A DNA stretch of 33,699 nucleotides. Origin: a bacterium. GTDB taxonomy: Bacteria > Planctomycetota > UBA11346. The notes beneath the pieces are model-generated. The model was given only the letters and a program-made list of their open reading frames with translations. It did not search any database and was not told the DNA's origin. The translations under genes and the position numbers were made by a program. Of the stretch, positions 3 through 20,849 are shown piece after piece (within the stretch, counting starts at the first letter, position 1; each line of letters starts with the position of its first letter). The stretch covers positions 1 through 33,699 of the forward strand of contig JAIFND010000154.1 in NCBI GenBank assembly GCA_020047915.1, given 5' to 3'.

Positions 3-536
3 GAGGCGACCCAGATCAAGGCGGCGCGCGTGCGCGACGCGGCCCAGAACGGCTCGCCGACCTACTGGACGGCGGTGATCCAGGTGCTGGAGCTGTCGAT
101 CTACCTCAAGGACGTCGGTCTGGTCGATCGCCGCCTGAAGTTCGACGCCACCAACCAGTCCACGCCGGCCGACGATCTGCAAATGCTGCCGCGCAACCCG
201 CGCGACGACAAGCGCGTGCGCCGCGCGCGCAACGCCCTATCCGCCGAACTGTGCCGGCGCTATCAGGAGATCTTCAAGCAGCCAGGCGTCACCGCCAAGG
301 TCGGCTTCACCATCGAGTCGATCGACATCGATGGCATCGCCACCACGGTCTTCCTGCCGGTCGGCGCACCGAAGTTCGCCCCGGTGCGGCGCGAACTGGA
401 CGACGGCACGGTGGTGTTCTTCCTGTGGGAGGAGGGCAAGGATCCGCCGCCCGAGGTTGTCGCCGAAGCGGCGCCCCCTGAACCTGCACCTGCGCCCGCA
501 CCTGCACCCGCCCCCCAGCCGGAGGCCAAGCCGTGA
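3..536 (+). CDS. Unidentified protein, C-terminal part (5' end outside window)
   Basis: An open frame enters from the left edge in frame 3, and nothing marks a start. The GTG at 30 is internal to readable sequence, because the residues before it (EATQIKAAR) continue the same composition. About 177 residues are visible: a charged helical part, a compact part with beta-like segments (roughly window residues 90-140, including TVVFFLWEEG), and a C-terminal tail of alternating Pro-Ala ending PQPEAKP. The tail looks like a flexible linker or wall-spanning end. I do not recognise a family. The stop overlaps the start of the next gene (GTGA at 533-536), so it is probably the upstream member of the operon containing the two TPR-like exported proteins. 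No function is assigned. Confidence 0.7.
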   Translation, partial: EATQIKAARVRDAAQNGSPTYWTAVIQVLELSIYLKDVGLVDRRLKFDATNQSTPADDLQMLPRNPRDDKRVRRARNALSAELCRRYQEIFKQPGVTAKVGFTIESIDIDGIATTVFLPVGAPKFAPVRRELDDGTVVFFLWEEGKDPPPEVVAEAAPPEPAPAPAPAPAPQPEAKP

Positions 537-1564
537 TCCGCGTCCTCCTCGTCCTGTTCTGCAGCTGCCTCGCCTTGGCTGCCGGCGAGGCCCCGCTCGG
601 CCCGCATCAGGGCACCGTGGTCCTCGCCGAGCGTTCCTTCGCCGAGGTGTGGATCCTCAGCGAGACCAGCGATGGCGTCGCCCACACCCTTGATGAGAAG
701 AAGGACAGCCCGCCGACCACGCTCAACCGCGGCAAGTACGTGCGGGTCGATTACAACCGTCCGCAGGATGTGCCGTGGCTGCGCGGCGACGCCGCCGCTG
801 CCAAGGCCGACTGGGCGACCGCCGCGACCCAGTTCCTCGAGGCGACGAAGTCGCGCGAGAGCTGGTACACCCGTGAAAGCGCCTTCCTGCGCGCTGCCGA
901 GGCGTTGCTGCAGGCCAACCGCGCAGATGAGGCGGTCAAGGCCCTCGATGGCCTGGCCGCCCAGTTCCCCAAGTCGGCCAACCAGGCGCGCATCGCCTTC
1001 CTGCGCGCCCAGAGCCTGCAGAAGAAGGGGGATAATGACGGCGCGCTCAAGGCCTACGCCGTCCTCGCCGGCAAGGCCGAGTGGGGCATCAGCGCCATCG
1101 CCCTGGGCGCCACCGGCCAGGCCGAGATCCTCGCCGCCGCCAAGAAGCACGATGAGGCGGCCAAGGCCCTGAATGCCGCCTTCGCCAAGCTGGATGCGGT
1201 GAAGGACGCCGAGTACTTCGCCCAGGTCGGCGTCGCGCTGGCCCAGCAGCAGCAGGCGGCGGGCCAGAATCCCGCCGCCATCGCCACCCTGCGCCGCCTC
1301 GCCTACGGTGCTGGCGATGCCACCGGCCGGGCCCGCGCCCAGGTCGCCTGGGCCCAGGTCCTGGTTGCACTCGGCGATCCGGCCAGCCTGTTCGAGGCTT
1401 TCGACCATGCCGCCATGGCCGACGCCGAGCGCGGCGCCGATCCGGCCGTGGCCGGCCAGGGCGCCCAGCTGATGCGCCAGATCACCGGTCGCATCGACAA
1501 ACTGGCTCCCGACCAGGCGTCCGATGCGCTCAAGGCCGAATACCGCCGCTACATCTCGAGGTGA
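533..1564 (+). CDS. Exported TPR-type repeat protein (paralogue 1)
   Basis: 343 residues. The start is GTG at 533, overlapping the previous stop and preceded by a good ribosome site (GGAGG, about 7 nt upstream). Residues 1-18 form a signal peptide (MIRVLLVLFCSCLALAAG); a Cys lies inside it but there is no clear lipobox, so export rather than lipidation is inferred. Residues 20-80 contain a small domain with the motif EVWILSET. From about residue 85 onward there are helical pairs rich in Ala/Leu with TPR spacing (for example residues 118-200, AEALLQANRADEAVKAL-like). TPR proteins act as protein-binding scaffolds; the partner is unknown. The next gene has the same layout and shares the SET motif, so the two look like tandem duplicates. 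Translation is probably coupled on both sides. Confidence 0.75.
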   Translation: MIRVLLVLFCSCLALAAGEAPLGPHQGTVVLAERSFAEVWILSETSDGVAHTLDEKKDSPPTTLNRGKYVRVDYNRPQDVPWLRGDAAAAKADWATAATQFLEATKSRESWYTRESAFLRAAEALLQANRADEAVKALDGLAAQFPKSANQARIAFLRAQSLQKKGDNDGALKAYAVLAGKAEWGISAIALGATGQAEILAAAKKHDEAAKALNAAFAKLDAVKDAEYFAQVGVALAQQQQAAGQNPAAIATLRRLAYGAGDATGRARAQVAWAQVLVALGDPASLFEAFDHAAMADAERGADPAVAGQGAQLMRQITGRIDKLAPDQASDALKAEYRRYISR

Positions 1565-1569
1565 GTCCC

Positions 1570-2772
1570 ATGCGCCGAGCCCTTTCCGCCGCCGCCCTGC
1601 TGCTCGCCTGCGCCTGCGTCCAGGCCGGCGATGCCGTGATCCTCGACCGTGTCCTGCTCAAGGACAAGGGGCCCAGCGAATGCTGGGTGGTCAGTGAAAC
1701 GCTTGAAGAGATGAAGTGGCGTGGTTCGCCCACCGCGGGTACCGACTCGACGCGCAAGCGCCGTGAGATCCGCGAGGTCGTGTACGCCTTCCAGCGCCAG
1801 CCCGGCGCCTGGACCCAAGGCATGGAGGCGCGCGACCGTGGCCGCTTCGCCGAATCGGCCGAACTCTTCGCCGCGCTGGCTGGCGGCGAGCGCGAAGCCG
1901 AGAAGGTGGTCGGCAGCTTCGAGGAGGGGGCGTCGTGGGATCTCGCCGGGCCGGCCAACGCGGCGGCGGCGGCGGCCGCCTTCGGCAAGATCGTCGCCGG
2001 GTTCCCGGCGCATCCGCTCGCCCTCGATGCGCGCTACCGCCAGGGCATGGTCCTGGCCATGGCCAAGAAGACCGATGAGGCTGACGCCCTGGCCAAGAAG
2101 CTGGAGGAGGACGGCAAGGGCAAGCTCGGCCAGGCCGCCAATGTCCGCGCCGCCGCGATCCGTTCTGCCATGGCGCTGGCCAAGGGCGACGCCAACGAAC
2201 TGCGCCGTAACGTTTCGAAGGCCTCGTTCAGCCCCGAGGCCGAACGCGGGCCGTGGCTGCACTTCAACCTCTTCGTCGCCGACACCCTGCGCAGCACCGG
2301 CCAGGCCAAGGATGCGGTGCCGATCTACGAGCGCATGCTGCCGCAGCTCGCCGCCGACCCCGCCGCTTCGGCGCGGGTGCGGCTGGGCATCGGCGTGTGC
2401 AAGGCCGACAGCGACCGTCAGGGCGCGATCATCGACCTGCTGGCCCTCGACGCCCTGCCCTTCGGATCGCCCGAGCAGAAATGCGAAGCGCGCTGGCACC
2501 TCGGGCGGCTGCTCATCGCTGATGCCGACGCATTGGAGAAGACCAACGGTTTCGCTGCCGACGAGCGCAAGGTCGCGCTCGCCAAGGAGAACCGCGCCGC
2601 CGCCCTGCTGCTGCTGCAGGCCGCCGCCGAGGCCGTCACCGACCATCCGACCAAGGCGCAGGCTGCCGAGCTGCTCAAGACCCTGGCGCCCGCCGCCGAC
2701 GAGGCCAAGCCGGGCGACAAGCCCGCTGAAGCGAAGCCGGCGGACAAACCGGCGGACAAGCCGAAGAAGTAG
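1570..2772 (+). CDS. Exported TPR-type repeat protein (paralogue 2)
   Basis: 400 residues from ATG 1570. I prefer this start to the GTG at 1561 because a GAGGTGA ribosome site lies 6-7 nt upstream and the protein then begins directly with a signal peptide (MRRALSAAALLLACACVQAG). The mature N-terminus carries ECWVVSET, matching EVWILSET in the preceding gene at the same distance from the signal peptide. The remainder is Ala/Leu-rich helical repeats of TPR type (about residues 85-370), ending in a Lys/Pro/Ala tail with repeated KPADKP. The tail may bind polyanions or cross the periplasm, but that is inference. The stop of the preceding gene lies inside this gene's ribosome site, so the two are likely co-translated. 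A periplasmic scaffold role is likely; the specific partner is unknown. Confidence 0.75.
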   Translation: MRRALSAAALLLACACVQAGDAVILDRVLLKDKGPSECWVVSETLEEMKWRGSPTAGTDSTRKRREIREVVYAFQRQPGAWTQGMEARDRGRFAESAELFAALAGGEREAEKVVGSFEEGASWDLAGPANAAAAAAAFGKIVAGFPAHPLALDARYRQGMVLAMAKKTDEADALAKKLEEDGKGKLGQAANVRAAAIRSAMALAKGDANELRRNVSKASFSPEAERGPWLHFNLFVADTLRSTGQAKDAVPIYERMLPQLAADPAASARVRLGIGVCKADSDRQGAIIDLLALDALPFGSPEQKCEARWHLGRLLIADADALEKTNGFAADERKVALAKENRAAALLLLQAAAEAVTDHPTKAQAAELLKTLAPAADEAKPGDKPAEAKPADKPADKPKK

Positions 2773-2851: not shown

Positions 2852-5800
2852 ATGGCTTTCGCCGGCAATCTCCGCACCCTGCCGCTGCCTGACGTCTTCC
2901 AGACGCTCAACAATATCAAGGCGACCGGTGTCCTGCGCCTGCGTTCGCAGGCCGGCTCGCGCGACGTGGTGTTCAACCAGGGCGAGATCGTCGGGGTCGG
3001 ATTCCTCGACAAGCAGGGCCGCGAGGACCTCGAGCTGCGTCTGTCCCTGCTCGGCGTCGAGGGCGATGCTGGCCAGCGGCTGCAAGGGGTGACCTGGTAT
3101 TGGACCGCGATGCAGGCGCGCGAGCGCGCCAACCGCACCGAGCTCGATGAGCTGGTCCACGAGCAGGCGCGCGAGCAGCTGCACAACCTGTTCGCCTGGA
3201 ATACCGCCGAGTTCAATTTCGACGAATCGGGACCGGGCAAGATCGAGGCCAACGAGCTGGTCGCGCGCAGCCTCGAACGGCCACTGTCGATCGACACCGC
3301 GACCATCCTGCTCGAAGCCGCCCGCCAGCAGGACGAATGGGCCGATCTGCGTGCGCGTATCCGCGACGAGACCGGCGCCGCGGCGATGGGATCGTCGCCG
3401 ACCCTGGGGGTGCAGCAGAGCGCGCTGGAAGCGGTCGAGAAGGTCGATGAGCCGCGTCCCGAGGAGAGCTCCTATCACCTCTACCTGAACGGCGAATGGC
3501 AGGGCCCCTATCCGCGTACCCGGATCGTCGGGCTGGTGCAGACCGGCGAGGTGCCGATCGAGACCTGGAGCTACGATCCGCTGACCCAGGACCGCAAGAC
3601 CCTTGACCAGCTGCTCGGCAACGAGGCGAAGCGCATCCGGCCCGAGGATCTTGATGCGCTCCGTCAGGCGGTGAAGGCCGCCGAAGGCCGTCTGGCCGAG
3701 GAACGCGCCGGCCGCGCCGCCGATCTCGCCGAGCTGCGCGGCCTCGCCTCCGAGGTGCTGCGCCTGGCGCGCGACTGCGAGCTCGACGACCCGGCCATCG
3801 AGGCGGTCGTCGCCCGGCTCAACGAGGTGGTCGGCGGCGACGATCCGTCGATCGTCGCCCTCGCTTCAGAGACCGTGGTGGTGGCGCTGGTGCGCCATCT
3901 GCGCGATCTTGCCGGCCGTGATCTGGCCGCCGCCCGCGAGCGCGCCGACGCGCTGGCCCACCGCATCAGCGAGCTGGAAGCCGGCAGTCGCGAGCTGGAG
4001 CGCCAGCTCAGCCAGGCCGAATTGCGTTCCGACGAGGAGCGCGGCAACGCCGAGCGCCTGCGCGAACGCCTGGCCGCCGCCGCCGAGGACGCCGCGCGGC
4101 TCGACCAGGAGCTGGAACGCAGCAAACGCGACAACTCGCGCGTCTCGACGGCGCGCATCGCGGCCATCCGCACGCCCGAGGATGCCGCCGCGGCAAGCGC
4201 CGAGCGCGCCGTGGACCAGCAGCGCGAACTGGGCCGGATGCGCGCCGAGCACGCCCGGCTGCTCAACGAGGTCGCTTCGCTGCAGGCGCGTCTCGACGAG
4301 GACCGCGCCCGTCACCAGGCCGAGCTGGAAGCCAGCCGCGCGTTGCATGGGTCGCTGGGGGAACGTCCGCAGCCGCCGACCGAAGCGATCGCACGCGAGG
4401 GGGCCGGTTCCGAGGGCGGACGCCTCACCGCGCTGCAGGCCGAGATCGATAGGTTGAAGGCGCTGCTCGCCGAAGCCACGCGCCACGCCGCCGGGGACGA
4501 GGCGCAGCGCAACCGGGCCACCGCCGAGCGTGACGAGGCGCGCGGCGACACCGAGCGCCTGCGCCGCGATCTCCACCAGGCGCGCGCCGAGGCCGCCCGC
4601 ACCGCCGAATTGGCGCGCGCCCACGAGCAGGCCGAGGCCCGCGTCACCGTCGCCGAAGGTCGGGCGGTCAGCGCCGAGACCCGCGCCAATACCGCCGGCG
4701 AGCGCGCCGAACGGGCCGAGCACGAGCTGGCCGGGCTGCGCGTCCGCCTGGCCCAGGCCGAGGAGGAGCGGCGCGCCCACGAGCGCACCGCCTACGAGGC
4801 GACCCGGCAGAACACCGAACTGCAGGTCCGGCTGCGTGAACTGGCAGCCCGTCTCGACGAGGGCGAGCAGCGTCTGGCCGAGCTCGGCGACCTGTCAGCC
4901 CAGCTGGCCGAGGCGCGGCAGCGCGCCGCCGAGCTGGAGGACGAAGGCGCCCGGATCCGCAGCGGCCTCGCTTCGGTGCGCGGCCAGACGACCGACAAGC
5001 TGGAGCGCGCCAAGCGCCGGGTTGTCGAACTGCGCGCCCGCCTGCGCGAGGCCAAGCGCGACCGCCACGCCCCGGTGCCCTGGTCGAGTCCGATGACGGC
5101 CGCTTTCAGCGCAGCGTCTGCGATGCCGCAGGCATCCGTCCCCTGGTCCTCGCCCGTCACCGCCGGCTACGCCCAGGGGGCGCCGCCAGCCGGCTGGTCC
5201 GACCCGAGCCAGGCCGGTCTGGCGCTGGCGCCGCACGCGGTCCCCGGACATGTCCTGCCCAACGCCACGCTGCGCACGACCAGCGGCACCTTCGTGCCGA
5301 TGCCGATGCCGGACGATTCCTCGGCCGGCCGGCAGGCGGTCAGGCCGGTGGCCCAGCCCGAGGCCCTGCCGACGGCCGATCTCAGCCGTCCCTCGCGCAC
5401 CCTGCGTTGGAGCCTGGCGGCGGCCGGCATCGCGCTTGCCGCAGCCTGGGCTTGGTTGAGCGCCGCCGCCGCAGTGCCGATCTGCGATGCTGTGGTCAAT
5501 GGCCAGGTGGTCGAGGTGACGGCGCCGATCAGCGGCCAGCTGGTCATCTCCGACAAGGGCGTGGTCGGCACCCTGGTGCGCAGCGGGGACGTCCTTGGCA
5601 CGATCCGTAACCAGGAGATCGATCCGTCGCACCGCGACCGTCTGACCAACAGCCGCAGCGCCAACGAGAACCGCCTGCGCAGCACCGAGGAATCGCTGCG
5701 CCGCGCCCAGCTCGAACACGACCTGGTGACGCGCGAACTCTCCAGCCAGCCGCTGGCGCCCGTGCCCGGCGCGGCGCCCGACCCCCGGCTGCGTCTGCGC

Positions 5801-6313
5801 GATGAGATCGCGATCCGCCTCGTTGAACTGGGCATCGTGCGCGACGACCTGCGCCTGCGCCAGGCCGAGGTCGAGGCCGAGTTGGCGCGCGAACAGCGCC
5901 GGCTCGACGAGCAGCGCGCCCAGGAGGTCGTCGCCAGCCGCAGCGGCCTCGTGTACCGGGTCAGCAGCGACCTCAACATGGCAGCCGGCAAGGTCGCCTT
6001 CTCCATCATCGACGAGGCCACCATCGTGCTCGACGGCGCGATCCCCGCCGAGCATCCGCTGCAGGCCAGGGAGACCGTCGCCGTACGTCTCGGCGGCACC
6101 GTGTTCACCGCCCAGATGCTCGAGGACGACCCGTACGTCCTGCGCGACCTGGCGCGCGACATCGCCGTGCCCAGCGGCCACCGCCGCATCCTGATGAAGA
6201 GTGATTCCGGCGCCATCCAGCTCGCCCAGCAGTTCGGTGCCACCGCCCGCGTCGCGGTCACCGGGAACCAGCCCGGCTTATTGTCTCGTTTAACGTTACA
6301 ATTACGTTTCTAG
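2852..6313 (+). CDS. DUF4388-GYF_2-long coiled coil-TM-HlyD-like fusion protein
   Basis: 1153 residues. Domains in order: residues 1-~165 a DUF4388 (PATAN-like) domain beginning GNLRTLPLPDVFQTLNN with the typical FNQGEIVGV hairpin; ~205-255 a GYF_2-type domain (YHLYLNGEWQGPYP, then TGEVPIETWSY); ~266-740 an uninterrupted Glu/Arg/Ala/Leu coiled coil; ~742-848 a Pro/Ser/Ala linker with two copies of VPWSSPxTA; ~852-873 one membrane span; ~884-920 a lipoyl-like half-motif (VTAPISGQLV); ~925-1027 a second coiled coil; ~1029-1133 the returning half (SGLVYRV) and beta-barrel part of a membrane-fusion (HlyD) protein. The N-terminal 850 residues should be cytoplasmic and the HlyD part periplasmic. 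DUF4388 and GYF_2 are protein-interaction or regulatory domains in other systems. There is no ABC or RND partner in the window. The transported substrate, if any, is unknown. The last ten codons are noticeably AT-rich. Confidence 0.85.
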   Translation: MAFAGNLRTLPLPDVFQTLNNIKATGVLRLRSQAGSRDVVFNQGEIVGVGFLDKQGREDLELRLSLLGVEGDAGQRLQGVTWYWTAMQARERANRTELDELVHEQAREQLHNLFAWNTAEFNFDESGPGKIEANELVARSLERPLSIDTATILLEAARQQDEWADLRARIRDETGAAAMGSSPTLGVQQSALEAVEKVDEPRPEESSYHLYLNGEWQGPYPRTRIVGLVQTGEVPIETWSYDPLTQDRKTLDQLLGNEAKRIRPEDLDALRQAVKAAEGRLAEERAGRAADLAELRGLASEVLRLARDCELDDPAIEAVVARLNEVVGGDDPSIVALASETVVVALVRHLRDLAGRDLAAARERADALAHRISELEAGSRELERQLSQAELRSDEERGNAERLRERLAAAAEDAARLDQELERSKRDNSRVSTARIAAIRTPEDAAAASAERAVDQQRELGRMRAEHARLLNEVASLQARLDEDRARHQAELEASRALHGSLGERPQPPTEAIAREGAGSEGGRLTALQAEIDRLKALLAEATRHAAGDEAQRNRATAERDEARGDTERLRRDLHQARAEAARTAELARAHEQAEARVTVAEGRAVSAETRANTAGERAERAEHELAGLRVRLAQAEEERRAHERTAYEATRQNTELQVRLRELAARLDEGEQRLAELGDLSAQLAEARQRAAELEDEGARIRSGLASVRGQTTDKLERAKRRVVELRARLREAKRDRHAPVPWSSPMTAAFSAASAMPQASVPWSSPVTAGYAQGAPPAGWSDPSQAGLALAPHAVPGHVLPNATLRTTSGTFVPMPMPDDSSAGRQAVRPVAQPEALPTADLSRPSRTLRWSLAAAGIALAAAWAWLSAAAAVPICDAVVNGQVVEVTAPISGQLVISDKGVVGTLVRSGDVLGTIRNQEIDPSHRDRLTNSRSANENRLRSTEESLRRAQLEHDLVTRELSSQPLAPVPGAAPDPRLRLRDEIAIRLVELGIVRDDLRLRQAEVEAELAREQRRLDEQRAQEVVASRSGLVYRVSSDLNMAAGKVAFSIIDEATIVLDGAIPAEHPLQARETVAVRLGGTVFTAQMLEDDPYVLRDLARDIAVPSGHRRILMKSDSGAIQLAQQFGATARVAVTGNQPGLLSRLTLQLRF

Positions 6314-8035: not shown

Positions 8036-8064
8036 TTGTGCAGCGCAGGCGCGGGACCTAGAAC
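8036..8064 (+). promoter_or_regulatory. Possible sigma70-type promoter for the kinase pair
   Basis: TTGTGC at 8036-8041 and TAGAAC at 8059-8064 are 17 nt apart, in the divergent gap between cysM and the first kinase, about 20 nt before its ATG at 8086. The match to TTGACA/TATAAT is partial (3 and 4 of 6), so this is a proposal from spacing and position only. Confidence 0.3.
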
Positions 8065-8085
8065 AGAGGACAGTCCAGCCTCGTC

Positions 8086-10083
8086 ATGGCAGAGCACAGC
8101 GACCCGCACCCTTCAGCCCCCCTGCCCGACCTGCCCGATCTACCGGCGCTGGGAGCGGATCCGTCGCGTCCTGAAAGCGCGGGCAGCGAATCGGGCAATG
8201 CTCTGCCGGTCGTGCACGGCCTGACTCCGCCCCGCCTGCTGACCGGCGGTGCCGCCGCCGTGGATGTGCAGTTCTCGACCCCGGAGCGTGATCTCAGCGT
8301 CGCGCTGAGCATTCCCGACGGTCAACCTCCCCCGCCCCAACCCATGCCAGCGGTGCCAGCGCCCGGACAATCCGCCGAAGCCGAGGCGGCGGTCGTCGGC
8401 GGGTTGCCGCGTCTGACCGCTGGACGGATGTTCGGGGGCTATCAGCTCGAGGCCAAGATCGGCCAGGGTGGCATGGGCGAGGTCTACAAGGCCCGCCAGG
8501 TCAGCCTCGACCGCGTGGTCGCGATCAAGATCCTGTCCAAGGCGCTGTACGACAACGACGAATTCATCAAGCGCTTCGAACGTGAGGCCAAGGCGATCGC
8601 ACGCATCACCCACCCGAACATCGTCGGGGTGTACGACTTCGGCCAGGCCGACGGCCTGCGCTTCATGGTCAACGAGTTCGTTGATGGCAACTCGCTGGCC
8701 AAGCTGATCTCCGATCGTCTCCTGCTGCCTGCCTCCGAATTCGTCCCGTTGATGGTGCAGTGCCTTGCCGGACTCGGCTACGTCGGTTCGCAGGGTATTG
8801 TGCACCGCGACATCAAGCCGGACAACATCCTGATCACCAAGGACGGGATCGCCAAGATCGCCGACTTCGGCCTGGCCAAGGATGTCTCGCGCAAGGACGA
8901 CCACACCGACCTCACGGCGGTCGGCCTCGCCATGGGCACCCCGGCCTACATGAGCCCCGAGCAGTGCATGGGCCAGAAGCTTGACGTGCGCTCCGACCTC
9001 TACGCCTTCGGCGTGACGGCCTGGTTCGCCCTGACCGGCCAGAAGCCGTTCACCGGCAATTCCAGCTTCGAGGTGATGACCAAGCAGCGCGAGTACATGC
9101 CGCCGCCGCCGCATGAGGTGGTGCCGGGCATCCCGCCCGCGCTGTCGCCGGTGATCCTGCGCATGCTCGCCAAGAAGGCCGAGGATCGCTTCCCCGACGC
9201 CGAGTCCTGCCGTCTGGCCTGGATCGACATCGGCGTGCAGTTGGGCGTCCTCGGTCGCGCCGAGCTGGATGCCCGTCCGCGCACCAGTGCCGAGATGCCG
9301 GCGCTGGTGCCGCTGCCGCCTCCGCCGTCCTCGGCTCCCCCGCCGGTTCCGGCCCCGGCCCCGGCCGCCGAGCCGGCCATGCCACCGCCGGGCGAAGCTG
9401 GCCGCCAACCCCAGGTGCCGCGGGTCGGGACCGAGAGCGTGCGCAGCCACGAACGCCCGACCGTCGAACGTCCGGCTTCCGAGCGGGCGGCGCGCCGGGG
9501 CGGCGACTCGACCACCTGCCCGCTCTGCGGCAGCCTCAACCGGCCCGAGGCGGCGGTGTGCGGCCGCTGCGGCAACGTCCTGCGCGTGACGGCCGATGCC
9601 GCCACGTTGCAGCAGCAGGAGGCCGAGGCGCAGCGGCTCTATGAGGCCAAGCGCTTTGCCGATGCCGCCTCGCTGTGGGCCCGGCTCGCCGACCGCGAGA
9701 CCGATAAGCGCTCGCGCTCGGTGCTGCGCAGCAAAGAGCGCGAGGCGCGCAAGCAGGAGCACGACCACCGCATCAGCGACCTGCGCGCCCGGGCCGCCGC
9801 CACCATTGCCCGTGGCGACCTGCAGGCCGCCCTGACCATGCTCGAACAGGGCCGCGATCTGCATCGCGATTCTGCCGCCAGCAGCACCAGTTCGTCGGTC
9901 ACCGACGTGCAGCTTGAACGCGATGTCGCGGCGCTGCGCGCCCGCCTGGCGTGGCGCCGGCGTGCGCGGAATATCGCCCTGGTCCTGATTGTCGCCGTCC
10001 TCGCCGTCGTCGCCCTGGTCGCGGTGCGTCAGGGCTGGTTCACCGCGCCGCGGGGTCCGGCCGCGGTAGGAGTCCAGCCATGA
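8086..10083 (+). CDS. Hanks-type Ser/Thr protein kinase with zinc ribbon and membrane anchor
   Basis: 665 residues. A Pro-rich lead (1-110) precedes a complete kinase domain (~118-380): glycine loop GQGGMGEV (126-133), ATP lysine K148, helix-C Glu E167, catalytic HRDIKPDN (D242, N247), DFG 260-262, and SPE in place of APE (290-292). A Pro/Ala linker leads to a zinc ribbon (C478, C481, C492, C495), then a charged helical stretch with a TPR-like look (505-600), and one membrane span (~628-648) close to the C-terminus. The kinase is therefore cytoplasmic and tail-anchored, with only about 15 residues outside. All catalytic residues are present, so it should be active. The stop overlaps the start of the next kinase gene (ATGA), so the two kinases are co-translated. 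Substrates are unknown. Confidence 0.93.
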   Translation: MAEHSDPHPSAPLPDLPDLPALGADPSRPESAGSESGNALPVVHGLTPPRLLTGGAAAVDVQFSTPERDLSVALSIPDGQPPPPQPMPAVPAPGQSAEAEAAVVGGLPRLTAGRMFGGYQLEAKIGQGGMGEVYKARQVSLDRVVAIKILSKALYDNDEFIKRFEREAKAIARITHPNIVGVYDFGQADGLRFMVNEFVDGNSLAKLISDRLLLPASEFVPLMVQCLAGLGYVGSQGIVHRDIKPDNILITKDGIAKIADFGLAKDVSRKDDHTDLTAVGLAMGTPAYMSPEQCMGQKLDVRSDLYAFGVTAWFALTGQKPFTGNSSFEVMTKQREYMPPPPHEVVPGIPPALSPVILRMLAKKAEDRFPDAESCRLAWIDIGVQLGVLGRAELDARPRTSAEMPALVPLPPPPSSAPPPVPAPAPAAEPAMPPPGEAGRQPQVPRVGTESVRSHERPTVERPASERAARRGGDSTTCPLCGSLNRPEAAVCGRCGNVLRVTADAATLQQQEAEAQRLYEAKRFADAASLWARLADRETDKRSRSVLRSKEREARKQEHDHRISDLRARAAATIARGDLQAALTMLEQGRDLHRDSAASSTSSSVTDVQLERDVAALRARLAWRRRARNIALVLIVAVLAVVALVAVRQGWFTAPRGPAAVGVQP

Positions 10084-13000
10084 ACGCCGCCGGCCCCTGT
10101 CCTGCGTGCGGCGCCGACGTAGCCGGCCCTGCCGCCGCTGACGGCCGTCGCCACTGCGGCACGTGCGGCCATCGCTGGGGCAAGGCTAGCGAAAGTGACG
10201 AGTACATGCCGGTTGAAGGCGCCGGGACGCGACCCGGGGCGCTGACCGGGCGGCATTCGCCATCCCGCCCCGTGCCGGCGATCACCAGCACGCCGGGCAA
10301 CCTGCCCTTCGACCGGCTCGAAGAGGAGTCGCGTCGGCTGACCGCGCAGCGCCCGGTCAGCGAGATGGCCTTCCGCCCCTCGACCGACAACATCAGCGAT
10401 GGACGGATCGGCTGCCCGGTATGCGGCCACGCCTTCGTCAGCCGGCCAGGCGAGGACGAACAGCGCTGCCCGCAGTGCGGCACCTCGTTCTCGCACTCGA
10501 CCGGGCGGCTGGTCGCCGGCGGGGCCGGCAGCGGCGATCGCCTCATCGGTCGGGTGCTGCGCGGCTGCATGATCGACCGCAAGCTGGGTGAGGGCGGCAT
10601 GGGCGCGGTCTATCACGCCCGCCAGTTGTCGCTCGACCGCAGTGTTGCGATCAAGGTCCTGCCGCCCGAACTCGCGCGCAACCGCAACTTCATCCAGCGC
10701 TTCGAACGTGAGGCCAAGAGCCTGGCGCGGATCAATCACGCCAACATCCTGCAGATCTACGATTTCGGCGACGACCAGGCGCTAGGCGTCTATTTCATGA
10801 TCATCGAGTACGTCGATGGCTGGGATCTCGGCGAACTGATGCGTCGTCAGCCAACGCTCTCGCAGATCGAGACGCTCGATATCCTGCGCCAGGCGCTGCT
10901 TGGCCTCGAACAGGCGGCCGAGAAGGGCGTGATCCATCGCGACATCAAGCCGGACAACCTGATGGTCGCGACCAATGGCCTCTGCAAGGTCAGCGACTTC
11001 GGCCTGGCCAAGGGCAGTGCCGGCGACTCCGAGGTGACCTCGGTGGGCGTGCGCGTCGGCACGCCGGCCTTCATGTCGCCCGAGCAGTGCGATGGCGTCG
11101 AGGTCGACAGCCGCAGCGATGTGTACAACCTCGGTTGCACCGCCTTCCTGATGCTGACCGGCCATCTGCCGTATGATGGCGAGACGCCGTTCAGCATCAT
11201 GCTCAAGCACAAGGTCGATCCGGTGCCGAGCCTGCGTTCGATCCGCGCCGACATCGATTCCCGGGTCGATGCCCTGATCCGCCGCATGATGGCCAAACGG
11301 CCGGACGACCGCTGCTATGGCCTGCGCGAACTGATCGACGAGGCCGAGGAGCTGCTCATCCATCTCACCGGCACCGCCTCGGTGCTGCGCAAGACCAACG
11401 GCCCGATCCGCGCCCTGGTCCAGCACGCCTCCGGTCAGGGTAGCTCGGGCAGCTCGGGCAGGCGCGGGCATGCCGAGGTCGAGGTCGATCTGCCGGTCGA
11501 CCACCAGCCGCCGGTGCGCAACGACCCCCTGCCCGGGGCCAGGCCGTCCGGGCGCCAGCGCAGCGTGCCGGCCGCCCTCCCCTCGCCCGCGGCTGCGCCG
11601 CCCAAAGCGGGCGAGCCCCCCGCCATCCCCGAGTGGCTGCGGCCGGTCGATGCCGTCGTCGCGCCGCCCTCCCCCCCGCCGCGTCCGGCAGGAAGCACGA
11701 CGGGGGCCATGCCTGCGGTCGGTTCACGCACCGGACCTGCCCCGGCGATCGGTGCGCGTACCGCCCAGGCCGCCGCCCTGGGCCGCGTATCGGCCAGCGC
11801 TTCGCGCCTGCAGCCGCCGCCGACCCTGGCCACGCCCTTCCCCGGCAACGTCACGCCGTTGCCGGGCGAGCGCCGCGCCGCGACGAGCTCCAGCACGCTT
11901 TTGCCCGGCGGGGCTCTCGACCGTGCCCGCGAGCGCGGCATCAAGGCCGAGGTTGCGGCGATCGCGGCCGGTGCCGAACGCCTGGCCGCGTCGGGCAGCT
12001 GGGAGCAGGCGGCCGGCGAATGGCGCAGGGCCGCGCAGCTCGCCCGCGATACCGGCGAAAGCCGTCGCCTGGCCGACCTGTCGCGCGAGGCTGGGCAGCG
12101 CGCCAAGCAGCGCCGGCGCTGGCGCGGACTGGCGATCGGGGCGGCCAGCGCGGTGCTGCTGGGCGTCAACGCCTGGATCTGGCCCCCGGTGGTGCACAAC
12201 CTGATCGCCGAGCGCGAACGGGCCCGGCTTGATGCCGTCGCTGAACCGCAGGCGCGGGCGCGTGGGCTGCGCGAGTTCGCCGCCGCCAACCAGGGCGGCT
12301 GGCGCTGGTACCGCACCCTCTTCGGACGCGGCTACGAGGTGCCGGCCGCCCTTGCCGCGGCGCAGGCGGCAGAGACGCCGTCGCCGGCTCCGGCGCCAGG
12401 GCCGGTGCTGAAGCGGCCGCCGGTCGCGCCGGTGCCGGTGCCGGCGTCCCGCGAGTCGCTCGCCGAGTTCCAGCGCTTGGCCGAAGATCCCGCGGTGCCC
12501 CTGCAACGCGTCCTCGACCAGGGCCGTCCGCTGGCCGCCCATCCGGCCGTGGCCACGGCGCTGGGCGACGCCGAGGCGCGTTTGGCCCAGGCCCGCGCCC
12601 TGCTGCAGCGCAGCCAGGCCGCGCAGACCCAAGGCCGGCACGGCGAGGCCCTCGAGCTCGCCGCCCAGCTTGCCGTCGAGCAGCCGCGCGCCGGGACCCT
12701 GCTCGGCGAACGGCCGCTGCCCGGCCGGGTCCGGGCCCTGGATGCCGACAGCGGCACGGAGATCGCCGGACTGCGCCTGCTGGTCGATGGGGTCGAACTG
12801 GCCTCGGGCGAATCACGTTTCTGCCGCGCCCGTTCCGGCGATACGCAGATCGAGGTCACCGCCTCGGGCTATGCCGTGCAGCGCGTCGCCGTGGTCGCCG
12901 GCAGTGACCCGGCCGAACGCGTGGTCGAGGTCCGGCTTGGACCGGCGCCGCTCTGGCGCGTGGCCGCACCCGAGCAGCGGCCGGCCTGGCTGCGCCTGCA

Positions 13001-13931
13001 CGCCGCCGGGGCGGCAGTGATCAGCCACACCGCAGGTGGCGTCGTCGCCATCGATGCGGCGACGGGCTCCGCCCGGCCGCTGACCCAGCCCGGCGTCCAG
13101 GTGGCGCCGTGGTGGTCGTCGGGCGATACCGGCTGGACCTTTGCCACCGCGGACGGCGAGCAGCGCCAGATCCTGCCGACCCTCGATCGCGCCGTGGCGG
13201 TGCGTCGGCTGGCCGGGGCGCCGGTGGCGATGCTCGACATCGAACTCGTCTATCGGACCGGTGGCCGGCTGGCGCTGGCTGTCGAAGCGGCAGGCGGCGG
13301 TCTGGCGTTGGTGGCCCGTGACGGGACGCGCGAAGCCTGGCGCGTGGCCGGGCTGAGCGGCCCTGCCGATCCGTTGCTGCGCCGGGTCGATGACCGCATC
13401 GTGATCGTGGACAACCAGACGGTGCTGGTGGTCGAGGAGGACGGCACCATCGCCAGCCGCCTGCCGCTGCGGGCGCCTCGTTCCGGGCCCTCGGCCGACC
13501 TGTCTGGTGGTCGCATGCTGATCGCCACCACCGCGGGCGTCGATCTGCTGCTGCTCACCGGAGGCGTGCGCCTGGTCGCCCATCCGTGGCTTGCCGAGGC
13601 GGGGGTCGCGGTCCCCGCCGCCGAAGGCGACGCGGTCGTCCTGGCCCGCGCGGATCGCGCCGTGGACATCGCCACCTGGGCGAGCGATCCGGTGCGGCCG
13701 CGCTGGCGTGCCAAGATCGCCGGCCGCCCGGTCCAGGTCGCACTGTCGGGCGGACTTGCTGCGGTCGCTGACGAGGCTGGCGCGGTCACCGTGCTGCGCC
13801 TGAGCGACGGCGTGACGCTCCGGCGGATCGCGCATGGCGTCGCGCTGGCGACCGCACCTCTGCTGCTGCCCGGCCTGGTCGTACTGGGCGATCAGACCGG
13901 CGCCCTGGCCGGCTACCGACTGCCGCAGTAG
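10080..13931 (+). CDS. Ser/Thr protein kinase with two zinc ribbons, TM, PEGA and PQQ-like propeller
   Basis: 1283 residues from ATG 10080, which overlaps the previous stop and has TAGGAG about 8 nt upstream. Readable sequence further upstream belongs to the preceding kinase in another frame. Order: zinc ribbon 1 (C7, C10, C26, C29), zinc ribbon 2 (C112, C115, C130, C133), kinase domain ~160-425 (GEGGMGAV 170-177, K192, E211, HRDIKPDN with D288 and N293, DFG 306-308, SPE 333-335), a Pro-rich linker, a helical repeat segment (~625-675), one membrane span (~682-702), a PEGA domain (~881-957), and beta-propeller repeats resembling PQQ/WD blades (~960-1283, for example GGVVAIDAATG). The propeller and PEGA parts should be periplasmic sensors or binders signalling to the cytoplasmic kinase. 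A GTTCGGC-family element follows the stop by 14 nt. Confidence 0.93.
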   Translation: MNAAGPCPACGADVAGPAAADGRRHCGTCGHRWGKASESDEYMPVEGAGTRPGALTGRHSPSRPVPAITSTPGNLPFDRLEEESRRLTAQRPVSEMAFRPSTDNISDGRIGCPVCGHAFVSRPGEDEQRCPQCGTSFSHSTGRLVAGGAGSGDRLIGRVLRGCMIDRKLGEGGMGAVYHARQLSLDRSVAIKVLPPELARNRNFIQRFEREAKSLARINHANILQIYDFGDDQALGVYFMIIEYVDGWDLGELMRRQPTLSQIETLDILRQALLGLEQAAEKGVIHRDIKPDNLMVATNGLCKVSDFGLAKGSAGDSEVTSVGVRVGTPAFMSPEQCDGVEVDSRSDVYNLGCTAFLMLTGHLPYDGETPFSIMLKHKVDPVPSLRSIRADIDSRVDALIRRMMAKRPDDRCYGLRELIDEAEELLIHLTGTASVLRKTNGPIRALVQHASGQGSSGSSGRRGHAEVEVDLPVDHQPPVRNDPLPGARPSGRQRSVPAALPSPAAAPPKAGEPPAIPEWLRPVDAVVAPPSPPPRPAGSTTGAMPAVGSRTGPAPAIGARTAQAAALGRVSASASRLQPPPTLATPFPGNVTPLPGERRAATSSSTLLPGGALDRARERGIKAEVAAIAAGAERLAASGSWEQAAGEWRRAAQLARDTGESRRLADLSREAGQRAKQRRRWRGLAIGAASAVLLGVNAWIWPPVVHNLIAERERARLDAVAEPQARARGLREFAAANQGGWRWYRTLFGRGYEVPAALAAAQAAETPSPAPAPGPVLKRPPVAPVPVPASRESLAEFQRLAEDPAVPLQRVLDQGRPLAAHPAVATALGDAEARLAQARALLQRSQAAQTQGRHGEALELAAQLAVEQPRAGTLLGERPLPGRVRALDADSGTEIAGLRLLVDGVELASGESRFCRARSGDTQIEVTASGYAVQRVAVVAGSDPAERVVEVRLGPAPLWRVAAPEQRPAWLRLHAAGAAVISHTAGGVVAIDAATGSARPLTQPGVQVAPWWSSGDTGWTFATADGEQRQILPTLDRAVAVRRLAGAPVAMLDIELVYRTGGRLALAVEAAGGGLALVARDGTREAWRVAGLSGPADPLLRRVDDRIVIVDNQTVLVVEEDGTIASRLPLRAPRSGPSADLSGGRMLIATTAGVDLLLLTGGVRLVAHPWLAEAGVAVPAAEGDAVVLARADRAVDIATWASDPVRPRWRAKIAGRPVQVALSGGLAAVADEAGAVTVLRLSDGVTLRRIAHGVALATAPLLLPGLVVLGDQTGALAGYRLPQ

Positions 13932-13944
13932 ACCGAGATGGGGC

Positions 13945-14092
13945 AGTTCGGCGTTCGGCGTTCGGCGTTCGACGTTTCGAGGCAAGCTCTTGCACGATGC
14001 ATGGTTCGTCACCCTGCGGGTGAGCCACACCGCAATCGTGATTTCAGCGAAAGACCATGCGGAACGTCGCACGCCGAACGTCGAACGTCGAA
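13945..14092. repeat. Hairpin element, GTTCGGC family (copy 2)
   Basis: Arms 13945-13977 (7-nt units, GTTCGGC type) and 14061-14092 (GAACGCC/GAACGTC type) are imperfect reverse complements. The loop is about 83 nt and contains an inner stem GCATGGT (13999-14005)/ACCATGC (14054-14060) and a small hairpin CACC-CTGCG-GGTG. It starts 14 nt after the kinase stop and ends about 30 nt before the P-type ATPase start. The right edge is followed by CTGTCTC, the complement of GAGACAG. Confidence 0.85.
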
Positions 14093-14122
14093 CCTGTCTC
14101 CGGTTTTCGGGTAGGTGCGGCC

Positions 14123-16267
14123 ATGGCCGGCGCCGAACGCGATCTCATCCTCGACGTCACCGAGGGCCTGCATTGCGCCGCCTGCGTCCGGCGCCTGGAG
14201 ACGGCGTTGCGTGGTCAGCCCGGCGTGTCGCAGGTGCGCATCGACCTGATCGCCCGCCAGGTCCGCCTGCGCCTGTCCTCAGGCGGGCTCGACGAGCGCG
14301 CCGTGGCGACGCGCTTGGGCAAGTTCGGCTTTGCGACCAGACCGGTCGCGACCGAGGCGGTGGTCGATCCGGCTCCGCGTTCGGCCTGGCTGCAGGCCGC
14401 CATCGCGGCCGCCCTGGCGGTGGCGGCGATGGCCTGGGCGATGCTCGCACCGCATCATGCGGCCTCGCCCTGGCTGCAGGCCGGTCTGGCGCTGGCGGCC
14501 CTCGCCGGACCGGGCCGCACCCTGCTGGCGCGTGCCGCCCGCGTGGCGCTTCGCCTGCGCCCGGACATGGACGTGCTGGTCGCCCTCGGCGCGGTGGCCG
14601 GCTGTGCGCACGGCGTCGCCGGGCTGCTGCTCGGCTGGCCGCACCTGCACTTCGAATCCTCGGCCGCGATCATCGCCTTCACCCTGGTCGGTCGCGCGCT
14701 CGAGGCGCGTGGTCGCGCCCAGGCCGGCGCTGCGGTCGCCGCCCTCCTCGCGCGCCAACCGCCGCGTGCCGTGCTGCTGCTTGACGACGGCGGCGAGCGC
14801 GAGGTCGAGGCCGCCAGTCTGCGCGCTGGCCAGCGCATCCGCATCCGGCCCGGCCAGGCTGTGCCGGCCGATGGCGTGGTGGTGGGCGGCGGCGGCGAGG
14901 TCGATGAGGCGATGCTCAGCGGCGAACCGCTGCCGCAGGCGCGGTTGCCCGGCGACGTGGTGTCGGCCGGTTCGCTCAACCGGCTTGGCACCCTCGAAGT
15001 GCGGGTGACGGCGAGCGGCGCGGCGACCCGGCTGGCCGGCATCGTCGAGGCGATGCGCGCGGCGCAGGCCGGCAAGCCGCCGATCGCGCGCCTTGCCGAC
15101 CGGGTCGCGGCGGTGTTCGTGCCTGCCGCCATCCTGCTCGCCGTGGCCACCGCCGCAGCGTGGTGGCAACTGGGCGGCGACTGGCAGCGCGGGGTGACTG
15201 CGGCGATGGGCGTGCTGGTCATCGCCTGTCCCTGCGCTCTCGGCCTGGCCACGCCGGCCGCCGTGGCGGTGGCGATCGGTCGGGCGGCGCGCGAGGGCGT
15301 GCTGCTGCGCGATGGTGCGGTGCTGGAGGCGCTGGCCGGTGCGCGCTGCGTCGTGCTCGACAAGACCGGCACGATCACCGCCGGCCGACCGCAGGTCGCC
15401 GAGGTGGTCGCTGCGCCGCATGCCGACCGTGCGACCGTGCTGCGCCTGGCTGCCGCCGCCGAGACCGGTTCCGAGCACCCGCTGGCCGCCGCGCTGCGTG
15501 CGCTCGCCGCCAGCGAGTCGTTGGTCGTGCCGGCAGCCGACGGCTTCGTCGCCACCCCGGGCGGCGGCGTACGGGCGGTGGTCGAGGGCGGTGAGATCCT
15601 GGTCGGCACCCGGGTCTTCCTCGCCGCCGCCGGCATCACCGCCGCGCCGGCCGATCCGCCCGGGCCGGGCAGCATCGCGCACGTCGCCGCCGCTGGGCGC
15701 TGGATCGGCTGCGTCCGGCTGCTCGACGAGCCACGGCCAGGCGCCGCAGCCGCGATCCTCGCGCTGCGTGCTCTGCAGCTCCGGCCGCACCTCGCCAGCG
15801 GCGACCAGGCGGGCGAGGTACGGCGGGTCGCCGGACTGGTCGGCATCAACGACCACCGCGCCGCGCTGTCGCCCGACGGCAAGGCCCGGCTGGTTGCCGA
15901 TCTCGAGGCGGCTGGCGATCCGGTGCTGGCGGTCGGCGACGGGATCAACGATGCGCCGATGCTGGCTCGCGCCTCGGCCGGGGCGGCGGTCGCGGGTGGG
16001 GCCGACGTCGCCGCTTTGGCCGGGGGCCTGGTGCTCGACGCGGCCCGGCCGCTGGAGGCGGCCGCCGGGGCGGTCGCCCTGGCGCGTGCGACCATGCGCA
16101 CCATCCGCTGGAATCTGGCCTTCGCCGCCGGCTACAACCTGATCGCCATCCCCGCCGCCGCGACCGGCCGCCTCGACCCGATGTGGGCTGCCGCGGCGAT
16201 GGCGGCATCGAGCCTGTGCGTGGTCGGCAACAGCCTGCGCCTGGCACGCTGGCGGCGGGGGCGGTGA
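14123..16267 (+). CDS. Cu(+)-type P1B ATPase (heavy-metal exporter)
   Basis: 714 residues from ATG 14123. A reading 22 residues longer would start inside the repeat element. A heavy-metal-associated domain at the N-terminus carries GLHCAACV (C18, C21). Then come membrane spans, an actuator loop with SGEP (the TGES position), the transmembrane CPC motif (C369-P-C371), the phosphorylated Asp in DKTGT (D413), SEHPL for nucleotide binding, and GDGINDAP (605-612). The last spans contain YN and MxxSS, the pattern of P1B-1 (Cu+) pumps. It should export cytoplasmic Cu(I), either for detoxification or for cuproenzyme loading (CcoI/FixI-like). No CopZ chaperone, CueR-like regulator or cytochrome oxidase gene is nearby, so the choice stays open. 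Different hairpin families flank it on each side. Confidence 0.92.
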   Translation: MAGAERDLILDVTEGLHCAACVRRLETALRGQPGVSQVRIDLIARQVRLRLSSGGLDERAVATRLGKFGFATRPVATEAVVDPAPRSAWLQAAIAAALAVAAMAWAMLAPHHAASPWLQAGLALAALAGPGRTLLARAARVALRLRPDMDVLVALGAVAGCAHGVAGLLLGWPHLHFESSAAIIAFTLVGRALEARGRAQAGAAVAALLARQPPRAVLLLDDGGEREVEAASLRAGQRIRIRPGQAVPADGVVVGGGGEVDEAMLSGEPLPQARLPGDVVSAGSLNRLGTLEVRVTASGAATRLAGIVEAMRAAQAGKPPIARLADRVAAVFVPAAILLAVATAAAWWQLGGDWQRGVTAAMGVLVIACPCALGLATPAAVAVAIGRAAREGVLLRDGAVLEALAGARCVVLDKTGTITAGRPQVAEVVAAPHADRATVLRLAAAAETGSEHPLAAALRALAASESLVVPAADGFVATPGGGVRAVVEGGEILVGTRVFLAAAGITAAPADPPGPGSIAHVAAAGRWIGCVRLLDEPRPGAAAAILALRALQLRPHLASGDQAGEVRRVAGLVGINDHRAALSPDGKARLVADLEAAGDPVLAVGDGINDAPMLARASAGAAVAGGADVAALAGGLVLDAARPLEAAAGAVALARATMRTIRWNLAFAAGYNLIAIPAAATGRLDPMWAAAAMAASSLCVVGNSLRLARWRRGR

Positions 16268-16336
16268 TGAGCCGGTGCAGCACCTTCGTGTGGTGGGTCG
16301 TCAGTTCCGGAGACCTTGCAGAGAATGTCTGGCAGA

Positions 16337-16480
16337 GAAGGCGGAAGGCGGAAGGCGGAAGGCGGAAGAATTGCGGCGCGCTGTGCGCGCGTGCTAAAGA
16401 TGTTGGGAATTGTGCATGAGCCGCCTTGCCAACGCTTGCGGGCATCTCTTCCGCCTTCCGCCTTCTGCCTTCCGCCTTCC
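16337..16480. repeat. Hairpin element, GGAAGGC family (copy 1)
   Basis: The left arm 16337-16369 is about four and a half copies of the 7-mer GGCGGAA. The right arm 16447-16480 is its near-perfect reverse complement (one mismatch, CTTCTGCC). The loop of about 77 nt contains a 6-bp hairpin GCGCGC-TGT-GCGCGC (16376-16390). It lies 70 nt downstream of the ATPase stop and about 57 nt before the third kinase gene. Confidence 0.9.
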
Positions 16481-16537
16481 CGATGTAGGCAGTAGCTTCT
16501 GGCGCGTCACACGACCATCTGACAGGTCGGTGCCCGC

Positions 16538-18646
<2,109 letters not shown>

Positions 18647-18692: not shown

Positions 18693-20849
18693 ATGCCCCA
18701 TGCCTTCACCATCTTCCGCGCCGGCGGCTTCGATCAGGTCCGCCTGCAGAGCGCCGCCGACCTCGTCCACCTTGGCGATCTCGACCGCAAGCTGTGGGCC
18801 GCGCTGGCCTGCCCGGTCAAGGGCCTGGAGTTCGATGAGCGCACCCTGCAGCTCATCGACAGCGACAACGACGGCCGGGTGCGCGCTCCGGAACTGCTCG
18901 CGGCGGTGGTCTGGGCGTGCGAGCGGCTGAACGATCCGTGGGCGATCAGCGCCCGTCGCGAACGCCTGCCGCTGGCGGCGATCGCTTCCGCCAAGCCGGG
19001 CGGCGCGGTCCTGCTCGGTTGCGCCCGGCGCGTGCTGGAACGGGTCGGGACGCCCGGTGCCACCGACCTCGGCGTGGCCGACATCACCGGGGCGTCGGCC
19101 GAGCTGGCCAAGACCGCGTTCAACGGCGATGGCGTCATGCCGCCGGGCAGCGCCGGCGATGCGCGCCTCGACCAGGCGATCGCCGACATCCTCAGCACCC
19201 GGACGGCGGTGCGCGACAGTAGCGGCGTGGACGGCCTCGATCAGCCCGGTCTCGCCGGCTTCGTCGGCGAGGCGACGGCCTGGTTGGCGTGGTGGGATGC
19301 CGGAGCCGCGCAGGCGGCGCATCTGCCCGTGGGCGACCGCACGCCGGCTGCTGCCGCTGCGGTCGCGGCGGTAGGCGCCAAGGTCGATGACTGGTTCCTG
19401 CGCAATGCCGCCGCCGCCTTCGATGCGCGGGCTGCGGCGCAGCTCGGTCGCAGCGAGGCGGAGTGGGCTGCGCTCGCGGTGCGCGACCTCGGCTCGGCGA
19501 CGGTCGAGCTGGCCGGCTTCCCGCTCGCCGGGGTGCGCGCCGGGGCCGCCCTCCCGTTGGGTGCCGGGCTCAATCCAGCGTGGTCGGCGGCGATCGCCAC
19601 GCTGCAGCGCGACGCAATCGTGCCGCTGCTCGGCGAGCGTAGCGAACTGACGGAAGCCGACTGGCGCAGCGTGTGCGGCCGGCTGGCCGCCTACCGCGAC
19701 TGGAGCGCGGGCGAACCGCATCCGGCGGTTGGCAAGCTGGGAGCGGTGCGGGTGCGTGCGCTGCTCGACCCGGCGGTGCAGGCGGGGTTGCAGGGCCTGT
19801 TCGCCAAGGACCGGGAGGTGCAGCCGGAATTCGCCGCGCTGGGTGATCTCGAGCGGCTGGTGCGCTACCACCGCGACCTGTTCTGTCTGCTCAACAACTT
19901 CGTCGCGCTGTCCGATCTCTACGACCCAGCCTACCCGGCGATCTTCCAGTCGGGCACGCTCTACCTCGATGGCCGCGCCAGCCAGTTGTGCGTCGAGGTC
20001 GGCGACATGGCCCGCCACGGCCTGCTCGCCGGGCGCAGCAACGCCTTCCTGGTCTATGCCGACTGCCTGCGCGCCGGGGTCAAACGCACCGTCTGCGCGG
20101 CGATGACCAACGGCGACGCCCACGGCCTGTTCGTCGGACGCAATGGCCTGTTCATCGATCGCAAGGGCCAGGACTGGGACGCCACGGTGGTCAAGGTGGT
20201 CGAGAACCCGATCAGCATCCGCGAAGCCTTCTGGTCGCCGTACAAGCGCGTCGTGCGCTTCGTCGAGGACTTCGCCGCCAAGCGCGCCGCCGAGGCTGAC
20301 AAGGCTTCGGATGCCAAGCTGCAGGGCGCGACCGCCGCGGTAGCGGTCGCCGCGCCCGGCGACGCGCAGGCCAAGCCCAAGATCGACGTCGGCACGGTCG
20401 CAGCCCTCGGTGTCGCGGTCGGCGGCATCACCACCGCCCTCGGTCTGATGCTCAATGCCTTCTTCGGCCTCGGCTGGCTGATTCCGCTCGGCGTGGTCGG
20501 CCTGATCCTGGCGATCAGCGGCCCGTCGATGGTGCTCGCTTGGCTCAAGTTGCGCAGTCGCTCGGTCGGGCCGATCCTCGACGCCAACGGCTGGGCGGTG
20601 AACGGCAACGCACGTATCAACATCCCCTTCGGCGCCGCGCTCACCGCGCTGGCCAGCCTGCCCCTGGATGCCAAGCGCATCGTGGGCGACCCCTATGCCG
20701 AGAAGCGCAGCCCGTGGCGACTCTATGTGCTGCTGGTGCTGGTGCTGTGCGGCGCGACCTGGAGCGGCCTCGACCGCTGGATCCACGGCACGTGGTGGTG
20801 CGAACGGCTCGTGGCCGCCCCGGTCGAGGTGCCGGTCGAGAAGAAGTAG
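18693..20849 (+). CDS. EF-hand-containing membrane protein of unknown function
   Basis: 718 residues. Near the N-terminus a canonical EF-hand calcium loop, DSDNDGRVRAPE (residues 56-67), has Asp at 1, 3 and 5, Gly at 6 and Glu at 12. A weaker, partial loop with FNGDGVMPP lies near 143-151. A long soluble middle part (150-560) has no recognised domain; it includes well-ordered segments such as FCLLNNFVALSDLYDP and LFVGRNGLFIDRKGQDWDATVVKVVENPISIREAFW. Two or three membrane spans follow around 564-620, with one more near 675-695 and a charged C-terminus ending VEKK. Calcium binding at the first loop is likely; the rest is open. It sits directly after the kinase-like gene, 46 nt away, and ends convergently 2 nt from the PpiC-type gene. 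Confidence 0.75.
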   Translation: MPHAFTIFRAGGFDQVRLQSAADLVHLGDLDRKLWAALACPVKGLEFDERTLQLIDSDNDGRVRAPELLAAVVWACERLNDPWAISARRERLPLAAIASAKPGGAVLLGCARRVLERVGTPGATDLGVADITGASAELAKTAFNGDGVMPPGSAGDARLDQAIADILSTRTAVRDSSGVDGLDQPGLAGFVGEATAWLAWWDAGAAQAAHLPVGDRTPAAAAAVAAVGAKVDDWFLRNAAAAFDARAAAQLGRSEAEWAALAVRDLGSATVELAGFPLAGVRAGAALPLGAGLNPAWSAAIATLQRDAIVPLLGERSELTEADWRSVCGRLAAYRDWSAGEPHPAVGKLGAVRVRALLDPAVQAGLQGLFAKDREVQPEFAALGDLERLVRYHRDLFCLLNNFVALSDLYDPAYPAIFQSGTLYLDGRASQLCVEVGDMARHGLLAGRSNAFLVYADCLRAGVKRTVCAAMTNGDAHGLFVGRNGLFIDRKGQDWDATVVKVVENPISIREAFWSPYKRVVRFVEDFAAKRAAEADKASDAKLQGATAAVAVAAPGDAQAKPKIDVGTVAALGVAVGGITTALGLMLNAFFGLGWLIPLGVVGLILAISGPSMVLAWLKLRSRSVGPILDANGWAVNGNARINIPFGAALTALASLPLDAKRIVGDPYAEKRSPWRLYVLLVLVLCGATWSGLDRWIHGTWWCERLVAAPVEVPVEKK

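Follow-up and report, generated by a model that had tools for sequence, protein, structure and literature searches.

As judged from its sequence, the 1153-residue protein encoded from an ATG start at positions 2852-6313 (+) of the window (the whole 33,699-nucleotide stretch of DNA analysed here) is a membrane-anchored periplasmic adaptor with a long cytoplasmic rod and two signal-type domains (Table 1). Within the open-access literature covered, the architecture is undescribed; the kind of protein, a regulated periplasmic adaptor, is already known. The source is an uncultured planctomycete of class UBA11346, and we know of no cultured member of the lineage. The frame is considered a real gene on account of its strong coding bias (third-position GC of 88%) together with the 77-79% identity of its N-terminal 376 residues to the protein of a same-genus genome.

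Pfam detected DUF4388 as the sole domain of the window protein when searched alone, so the GYF_2 and HlyD assignments of the original prediction could be tested only through relatives, where both GYF_2 and HlyD_3 reached significance. With DUF4388 significant in the protein itself and the adaptor fold recognised by AlphaFold2 and Foldseek, the predicted union of DUF4388, a GYF_2-like domain, a rod of ~470 residues and an HlyD-like part on one polypeptide is borne out, for GYF_2 by way of the relatives, and support extends to the accompanying idea that the rod joins a head in the cytoplasm to an adaptor in the periplasm.

Table 1. Features of the adaptor gene and its two upstream neighbours (window positions; residues of the encoded protein)
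Feature	Residues	Position	Strand	Basis or remark
Exported TPR protein 1, neighbour, judged outside the system		533..1564	+	In 22/23 family genomes, independent of the adaptor gene
Exported TPR-like protein 2, neighbour, judged outside the system		1561..2772	+	
Whole frame: DUF4388, GYF_2-like domain, helical domain, coiled-coil rod, linker, TM, periplasmic adaptor (MFP)	1153 aa	2852..6313	+	
DUF4388 (PATAN)	4-164	2861..3343	+	Pfam PF14332, E 4.8e-23
GYF_2-like domain	205-263	3464..3640	+	Family profile; PF14237 matches of relatives
Coiled-coil-like rod, break at ~500-523	~262-735	3635..5056	+	Heptad periodicity, composition
Conserved helical domain, common to relatives	284-356	3701..3919	+	phmmer against family members, E 5e-9 to 1e-5
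Linker with two PWSSPxTAxF/Y repeats	743-754, 764-775	5078..5176	+	Relatives have FTSxxG[KR]PAI here
Single TM span, N-in/C-out	~853-878	5408..5485	+	Hydropathy peak 1.86; 3 K/R before, none after
First half of barrel-sandwich (lipoyl-like) domain	877-919	5480..5608	+	AlphaFold2; Foldseek MacA/EmrA/MexA
Adaptor alpha-hairpin	926-1022	5627..5917	+	AlphaFold2
Second lipoyl half and beta-barrel	1023-1136	5918..6259	+	AlphaFold2, Foldseek, profile; HlyD_3 in orthologues

Cytoplasmic heads, rod and periplasmic adaptor

The DUF4388 domain, which we take to be the same domain as PATAN, scores 81.9 bits against PF14332 (gathering score 25) and is modelled well by AlphaFold2, with a pLDDT mostly of ~90 over residues 1-175 and a poor patch at ~71-90; a fold search of the PDB with the DUF4388 model gave no match below E 0.4. 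The head is ~35-40% identical to that of a ~1350-residue paralogue in the same genome, and signalling input through it is plausible, since this nearest DUF4388 paralogue adjoins CheA and CheW. As an observation in its own right, contig C125 of the window's genome (G000; L042, 9527-13528 and 2864-5540) holds a family-wide ~1350-residue DUF4388-TPR-double zinc ribbon-PQQ protein beside a second DUF4388/PEGA/PQQ protein, CheA and CheW, a group that is a candidate PATAN-linked chemosensory module.

For the GYF_2-like stretch, W11-x-GP and other GYF_2 columns are invariant in the alignment of the window protein with its relatives, and PF14237 matches fall at the same position in all six aligned relatives (E 3.3e-6 to 7.4e-3), that of the G012 relative exceeding the curated cut-off (27.2 against 25.8 bits) and the other five being subthreshold. 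The window protein itself has no Pfam match to PF14237; its E of 1.1e-27 against the family profile of the stretch arises by construction, and the AlphaFold2 model of this part, of low confidence, was left out as evidence. The helical domain that follows is shared with the relatives, which are thus homologous to the window protein beyond the named domains.

Residues 262-735 are rich in A, R, E and L, with a hydrophobic period of 3.5 that lies above 500 of 500 shuffles for residues 262-500 and above nearly all for 530-735. Residues 600-735 by themselves are not significantly periodic (fraction 0.106), and Pro and Gly at ~500-523 interrupt the rod; for these two reasons the reach of ~70 nm foreseen for the coiled coil stands only as an upper limit of straight-helix length, the heptad pattern over ~470 residues being upheld. 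The rod in G003 is 65% identical. Beyond it, the window protein (P0001) lacks the FTS motif that relatives carry in the linker, the PWSSPxTAxF/Y repeats occupying its place. Basic residues before the single span and none after it, an arrangement repeated in the relatives, follow the positive-inside pattern and, with the hydropathy peak, agree with the one membrane crossing expected; the topology indicated by these sequence features is N-in/C-out, with rod and heads cytoplasmic and the adaptor periplasmic.

The AlphaFold2 model of the C-terminal 296 residues (pLDDT 85), a structure prediction that the original reading had called for, comprises half a lipoyl domain, two long helices of ~40 residues each, the other lipoyl half and a beta-barrel: the two lipoyl half-motifs thus flank a helical hairpin and are followed by the barrel, as in MacA/EmrA/MexA-type adaptors, and the single TM directly before the domain would anchor it in the inner membrane. 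Foldseek matched the model to MacA, EmrA and MexA at E 1e-11 to 1e-9, the family sequence profile matched EmrA in the PDB at E 4e-16, and HlyD_3 is above its cut-off in orthologues (E 2e-13, 1.3e-8 and 1.3e-11). Single-sequence searches with the window protein gave no Pfam match to HlyD and, by phmmer with the adaptor part, none in the PDB. On model and profile together, the predicted adaptor (HlyD/MFP) identity is firm. In a tree of adaptor domains only the window-genus clade is resolved (100/99), and the tie to the short adaptors described below is weak.

Relatives and genomic context

Relatives were sought by whole-genome search and with a profile of the GYF_2-like stretch, codon-based gene calls with wrong strands in the very GC-rich stretches L073, L087 and L092 being ignored. 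Proteins of the GYF_2-rod-TM-adaptor type occur in 11 of the 23 genomes of the window's taxonomic family, the G003 homologue counted among them being known from its C-terminal half alone; none was found in ~370 other planctomycete genomes, and the profile gave only weak matches (E about 1e-4) outside the family across the 392 planctomycete genomes. DUF4388 turned up as a head in the window's genus only (G000, G002). In other genera the protein begins just before GYF_2, with frames of 1640-1806 residues where contig ends do not cut them and a coiled coil apparently about twice as long as the ~470 residues of the window protein.

Several relatives are located in or beside polysaccharide (exopolysaccharide/LPS) clusters (G007, G015, G017 and, more weakly, G012 and G022). 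The G015 gene is flanked by a glycosyltransferase gene on one side and by O-antigen ligase/glycosyltransferase genes on the other, all on one strand, and shares 7 nt with the next glycosyltransferase gene; in G017 the 3' end overlaps that of a Wzy gene of opposite orientation, and genes for Wzz-ATPase, Poly_export and sugar transferase lie further on; and in G007 a Wzz-ATPase gene follows and a UDP-sugar dehydrogenase gene stands two genes upstream. The weaker context of G012 is a divergent UDP-sugar dehydrogenase gene. A KdsA-like DAHP_synth_1 gene is adjacent in G017 and G022, with a Kdo transferase near in G017. The window copy and its G002 and G003 orthologues lie outside any exopolysaccharide cluster, and G004, G013 and G019 have no polysaccharide genes on the visible side of the gene. 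Separately, in G022 (L035, 2528-4848) and G017 (L055, 10748-13077) the GYF_2-adaptor gene is preceded by two genes, one for a single-TM protein that matches SPOR weakly and one for a HEAT-repeat protein.

Across the 23 genomes, Poly_export is present in 10 of 11 with the adaptor family and in 2 of 12 others (Fisher p = 0.0006; p = 0.03 by genus), a co-occurrence confounded by shared ancestry and by incomplete genomes. The linker motif gives a further tie: searched as a degenerate DNA pattern in the 392 planctomycete genomes, FTSxxG[KR]PAI has five exact matches, all in the juxtamembrane linker of these adaptors (the reversed control gave 0 matches). Short adaptors (339-344 residues) in exopolysaccharide clusters of G000 and G002 account for two of the five. 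That of the window's genome (G000:C153, L071, 741-1757; 339 residues; HlyD_3 E 1.2e-13) has FTSxxGKPAI ahead of its TM as well as a conserved ISGLRPAV motif, lacks an alpha-hairpin, and lies directly upstream of Poly_export, after which come Wzz-like ATPase, Wzx-like and Wzy_C genes.

The cognate transporter of a periplasmic adaptor is usually encoded beside it, a placement that is not strictly required. As originally remarked of ABC and RND partners, no ABC, RND or MFS transporter gene is adjacent to the adaptor gene in the window or in the relatives' contexts inspected. The neighbours in the window are TPR, ferredoxin-like, PALP and kinase genes, with no Glt/Agl gliding families among the window genes scanned. 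The suggested link to gliding machinery through GYF_2, for which no open-access paper on a GltJ-GYF connection was found, has no support from the neighbours seen, and the location of relatives in polysaccharide clusters points to exopolysaccharide export, not gliding. Elsewhere in the window, a run of three genes for Ser/Thr protein kinases, of which two have zinc ribbons, is broken by a heavy-metal P-type ATPase gene (8062-18646); further genes encode a 718-residue protein with no Pfam match (18693-20849, +) and a family 28 glycoside hydrolase/pectate-lyase-like protein for polysaccharide degradation (31950-33350, -).

Proposed function and its rivals

The preferred reading, offered tentatively and at a little under an even chance, is that of an Alg44-like regulated adaptor for the assembly or export of envelope polysaccharide (Wzx/Wzy-type exopolysaccharide), in which a rod bears different sensor heads. 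The protein would help to control or position that export. The reading draws on the adaptor fold, the polysaccharide clusters around relatives, the co-occurrence with Poly_export, the shared linker motif and the Alg44 precedent. Confidence in it is limited because the window copy lies outside such a cluster, as do its G002 and G003 orthologues; also counting against it are the contexts of G004, G013 and G019, the missing FTS motif of the window protein, and the presence in the window genus of a separate short adaptor in the exopolysaccharide cluster. In the mechanism envisaged, GYF_2, and in the window genus also DUF4388/PATAN, would bind cytoplasmic partners, the coiled coil would keep the protein oligomeric and hold the heads away from the membrane, and the juxtamembrane linker motif may dock on some membrane-located part of the polysaccharide machinery; an occupied head could alter, via the single span, a ring of periplasmic adaptor domains that would connect Wzy/Wzz, the polymerase and co-polymerase, with Poly_export, the exporter of the outer membrane. 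The window copy itself would be a genus-specific variant, having gained DUF4388 and lost the canonical linker motif. A more far-reaching proposal, that these proteins form a new class of Wzx/Wzy-export adaptors confined to class UBA11346, with exchangeable heads (GYF_2 alone, or PATAN plus GYF_2) on a long coiled-coil antenna, one span, a periplasmic ring and a linker motif recruiting the polysaccharide machine, is possible and distinctly doubtful.

The adaptor part has its best sequence match in EmrA and keeps an alpha-hairpin of ~40-residue helices, features that favour a rival reading in which the protein serves an ordinary efflux or secretion pump (MFS/EmrB-, ABC- or RND-type) whose gene lies elsewhere, its cytoplasmic N-terminus being unusually long for such an adaptor; there is also precedent in HlyD, whose cytoplasmic N-terminus matters for TolC recruitment (PMC4446572). 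Such a pump is nevertheless an unlikely partner, given that a transporter gene is adjacent in none of the contexts inspected and that no hairpin is present in the related short adaptors that G000 and G002 encode beside Poly_export. The heads invite another interpretation, in which PATAN and GYF_2 would tie a polar, cytoskeletal or chemosensory/type IV pilus module to the envelope and the adaptor fold would be a mere anchor: in cyanobacteria, PATAN proteins act on type IV pili, downstream of chemosensory systems (PMC7690835), the window head most resembles the paralogue beside CheA/CheW, and a long rod fits a tether. A spatial organiser of this kind is improbable all the same, the DUF4388 head being seen in one genus only where the rod-adaptor family is wider, and no pilus or gliding genes lying near the gene.

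The two exported TPR proteins encoded upstream were originally put forward as partners, and their genes share the strand of the adaptor gene at a gap of 80 nt, the TPR-TPR-adaptor order being retained in G002. They belong, however, to a conserved three-gene unit of nearly all family genomes, in which a ~1250-residue exported protein with no Pfam match (its gene cut by the contig start at window 3-536) is followed by the two TPR-type proteins, of which the first weakly matches PorW/SprE (E 5e-7); the unit recurs at L088, L090 and L091. In G007 and G017 the TPR pair and the adaptor gene are on different contigs, and G001 has the unit with no adaptor found. The pair is accordingly ruled out as specific partners, being an independent operon that in other genera is well separated from the adaptor gene and that also occurs where the adaptor gene is lacking, and a single envelope machine comprising the TPR proteins and the window protein is very unlikely.

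Comparison with known systems

Alg44, a PilZ-TM-MexA-like protein needed for alginate polymerisation (PMC3815931), shares with the window protein a cytoplasmic regulatory domain, one transmembrane region and a periplasmic MexA/HlyD-like adaptor domain, serving polysaccharide export in Alg44 (PMC3815931, PMC4594306), and in both an HlyD_3-type adaptor domain follows one TM. In contrast to Alg44, the head of the window protein is DUF4388 plus GYF_2, with no PilZ match anywhere in the protein by Pfam, a ~470-residue rod is inserted, and no Alg8/AlgK/AlgE-type operon adjoins the gene; without PilZ and an alginate operon it is not an Alg44; it probably works like one. EmrA, MacA, MexA and HlyD have the same split barrel-sandwich, alpha-hairpin, beta-barrel and N-terminal membrane anchor, whereas the window protein adds a ~850-residue cytoplasmic part and has no transporter gene alongside. 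The PATAN response regulators PixE, PixG and PatA also bear PF14332 at the N-terminus; the window protein differs in lacking a receiver domain and in being fused to a membrane adaptor, and the PATAN-pilus work concerns cyanobacteria (PMC7690835). Bacterial GYF_2 proteins have their signature in common with the relatives, and searches of the open-access literature gave no example of GYF_2 combined with HlyD on one protein.

Alg44 is the known case of a cytoplasmic receptor and a periplasmic adaptor placed on one polypeptide to control polysaccharide export. If the Alg44-like reading of the window protein is true, its family would be a second, unrelated head-plus-adaptor design, marked by a very long cytoplasmic rod, implying that such wiring evolved more than once, and the FTSxxG[KR]PAI linker motif, together with the heads, would provide a handle on the cytoplasmic regulation of Wzy-type export.
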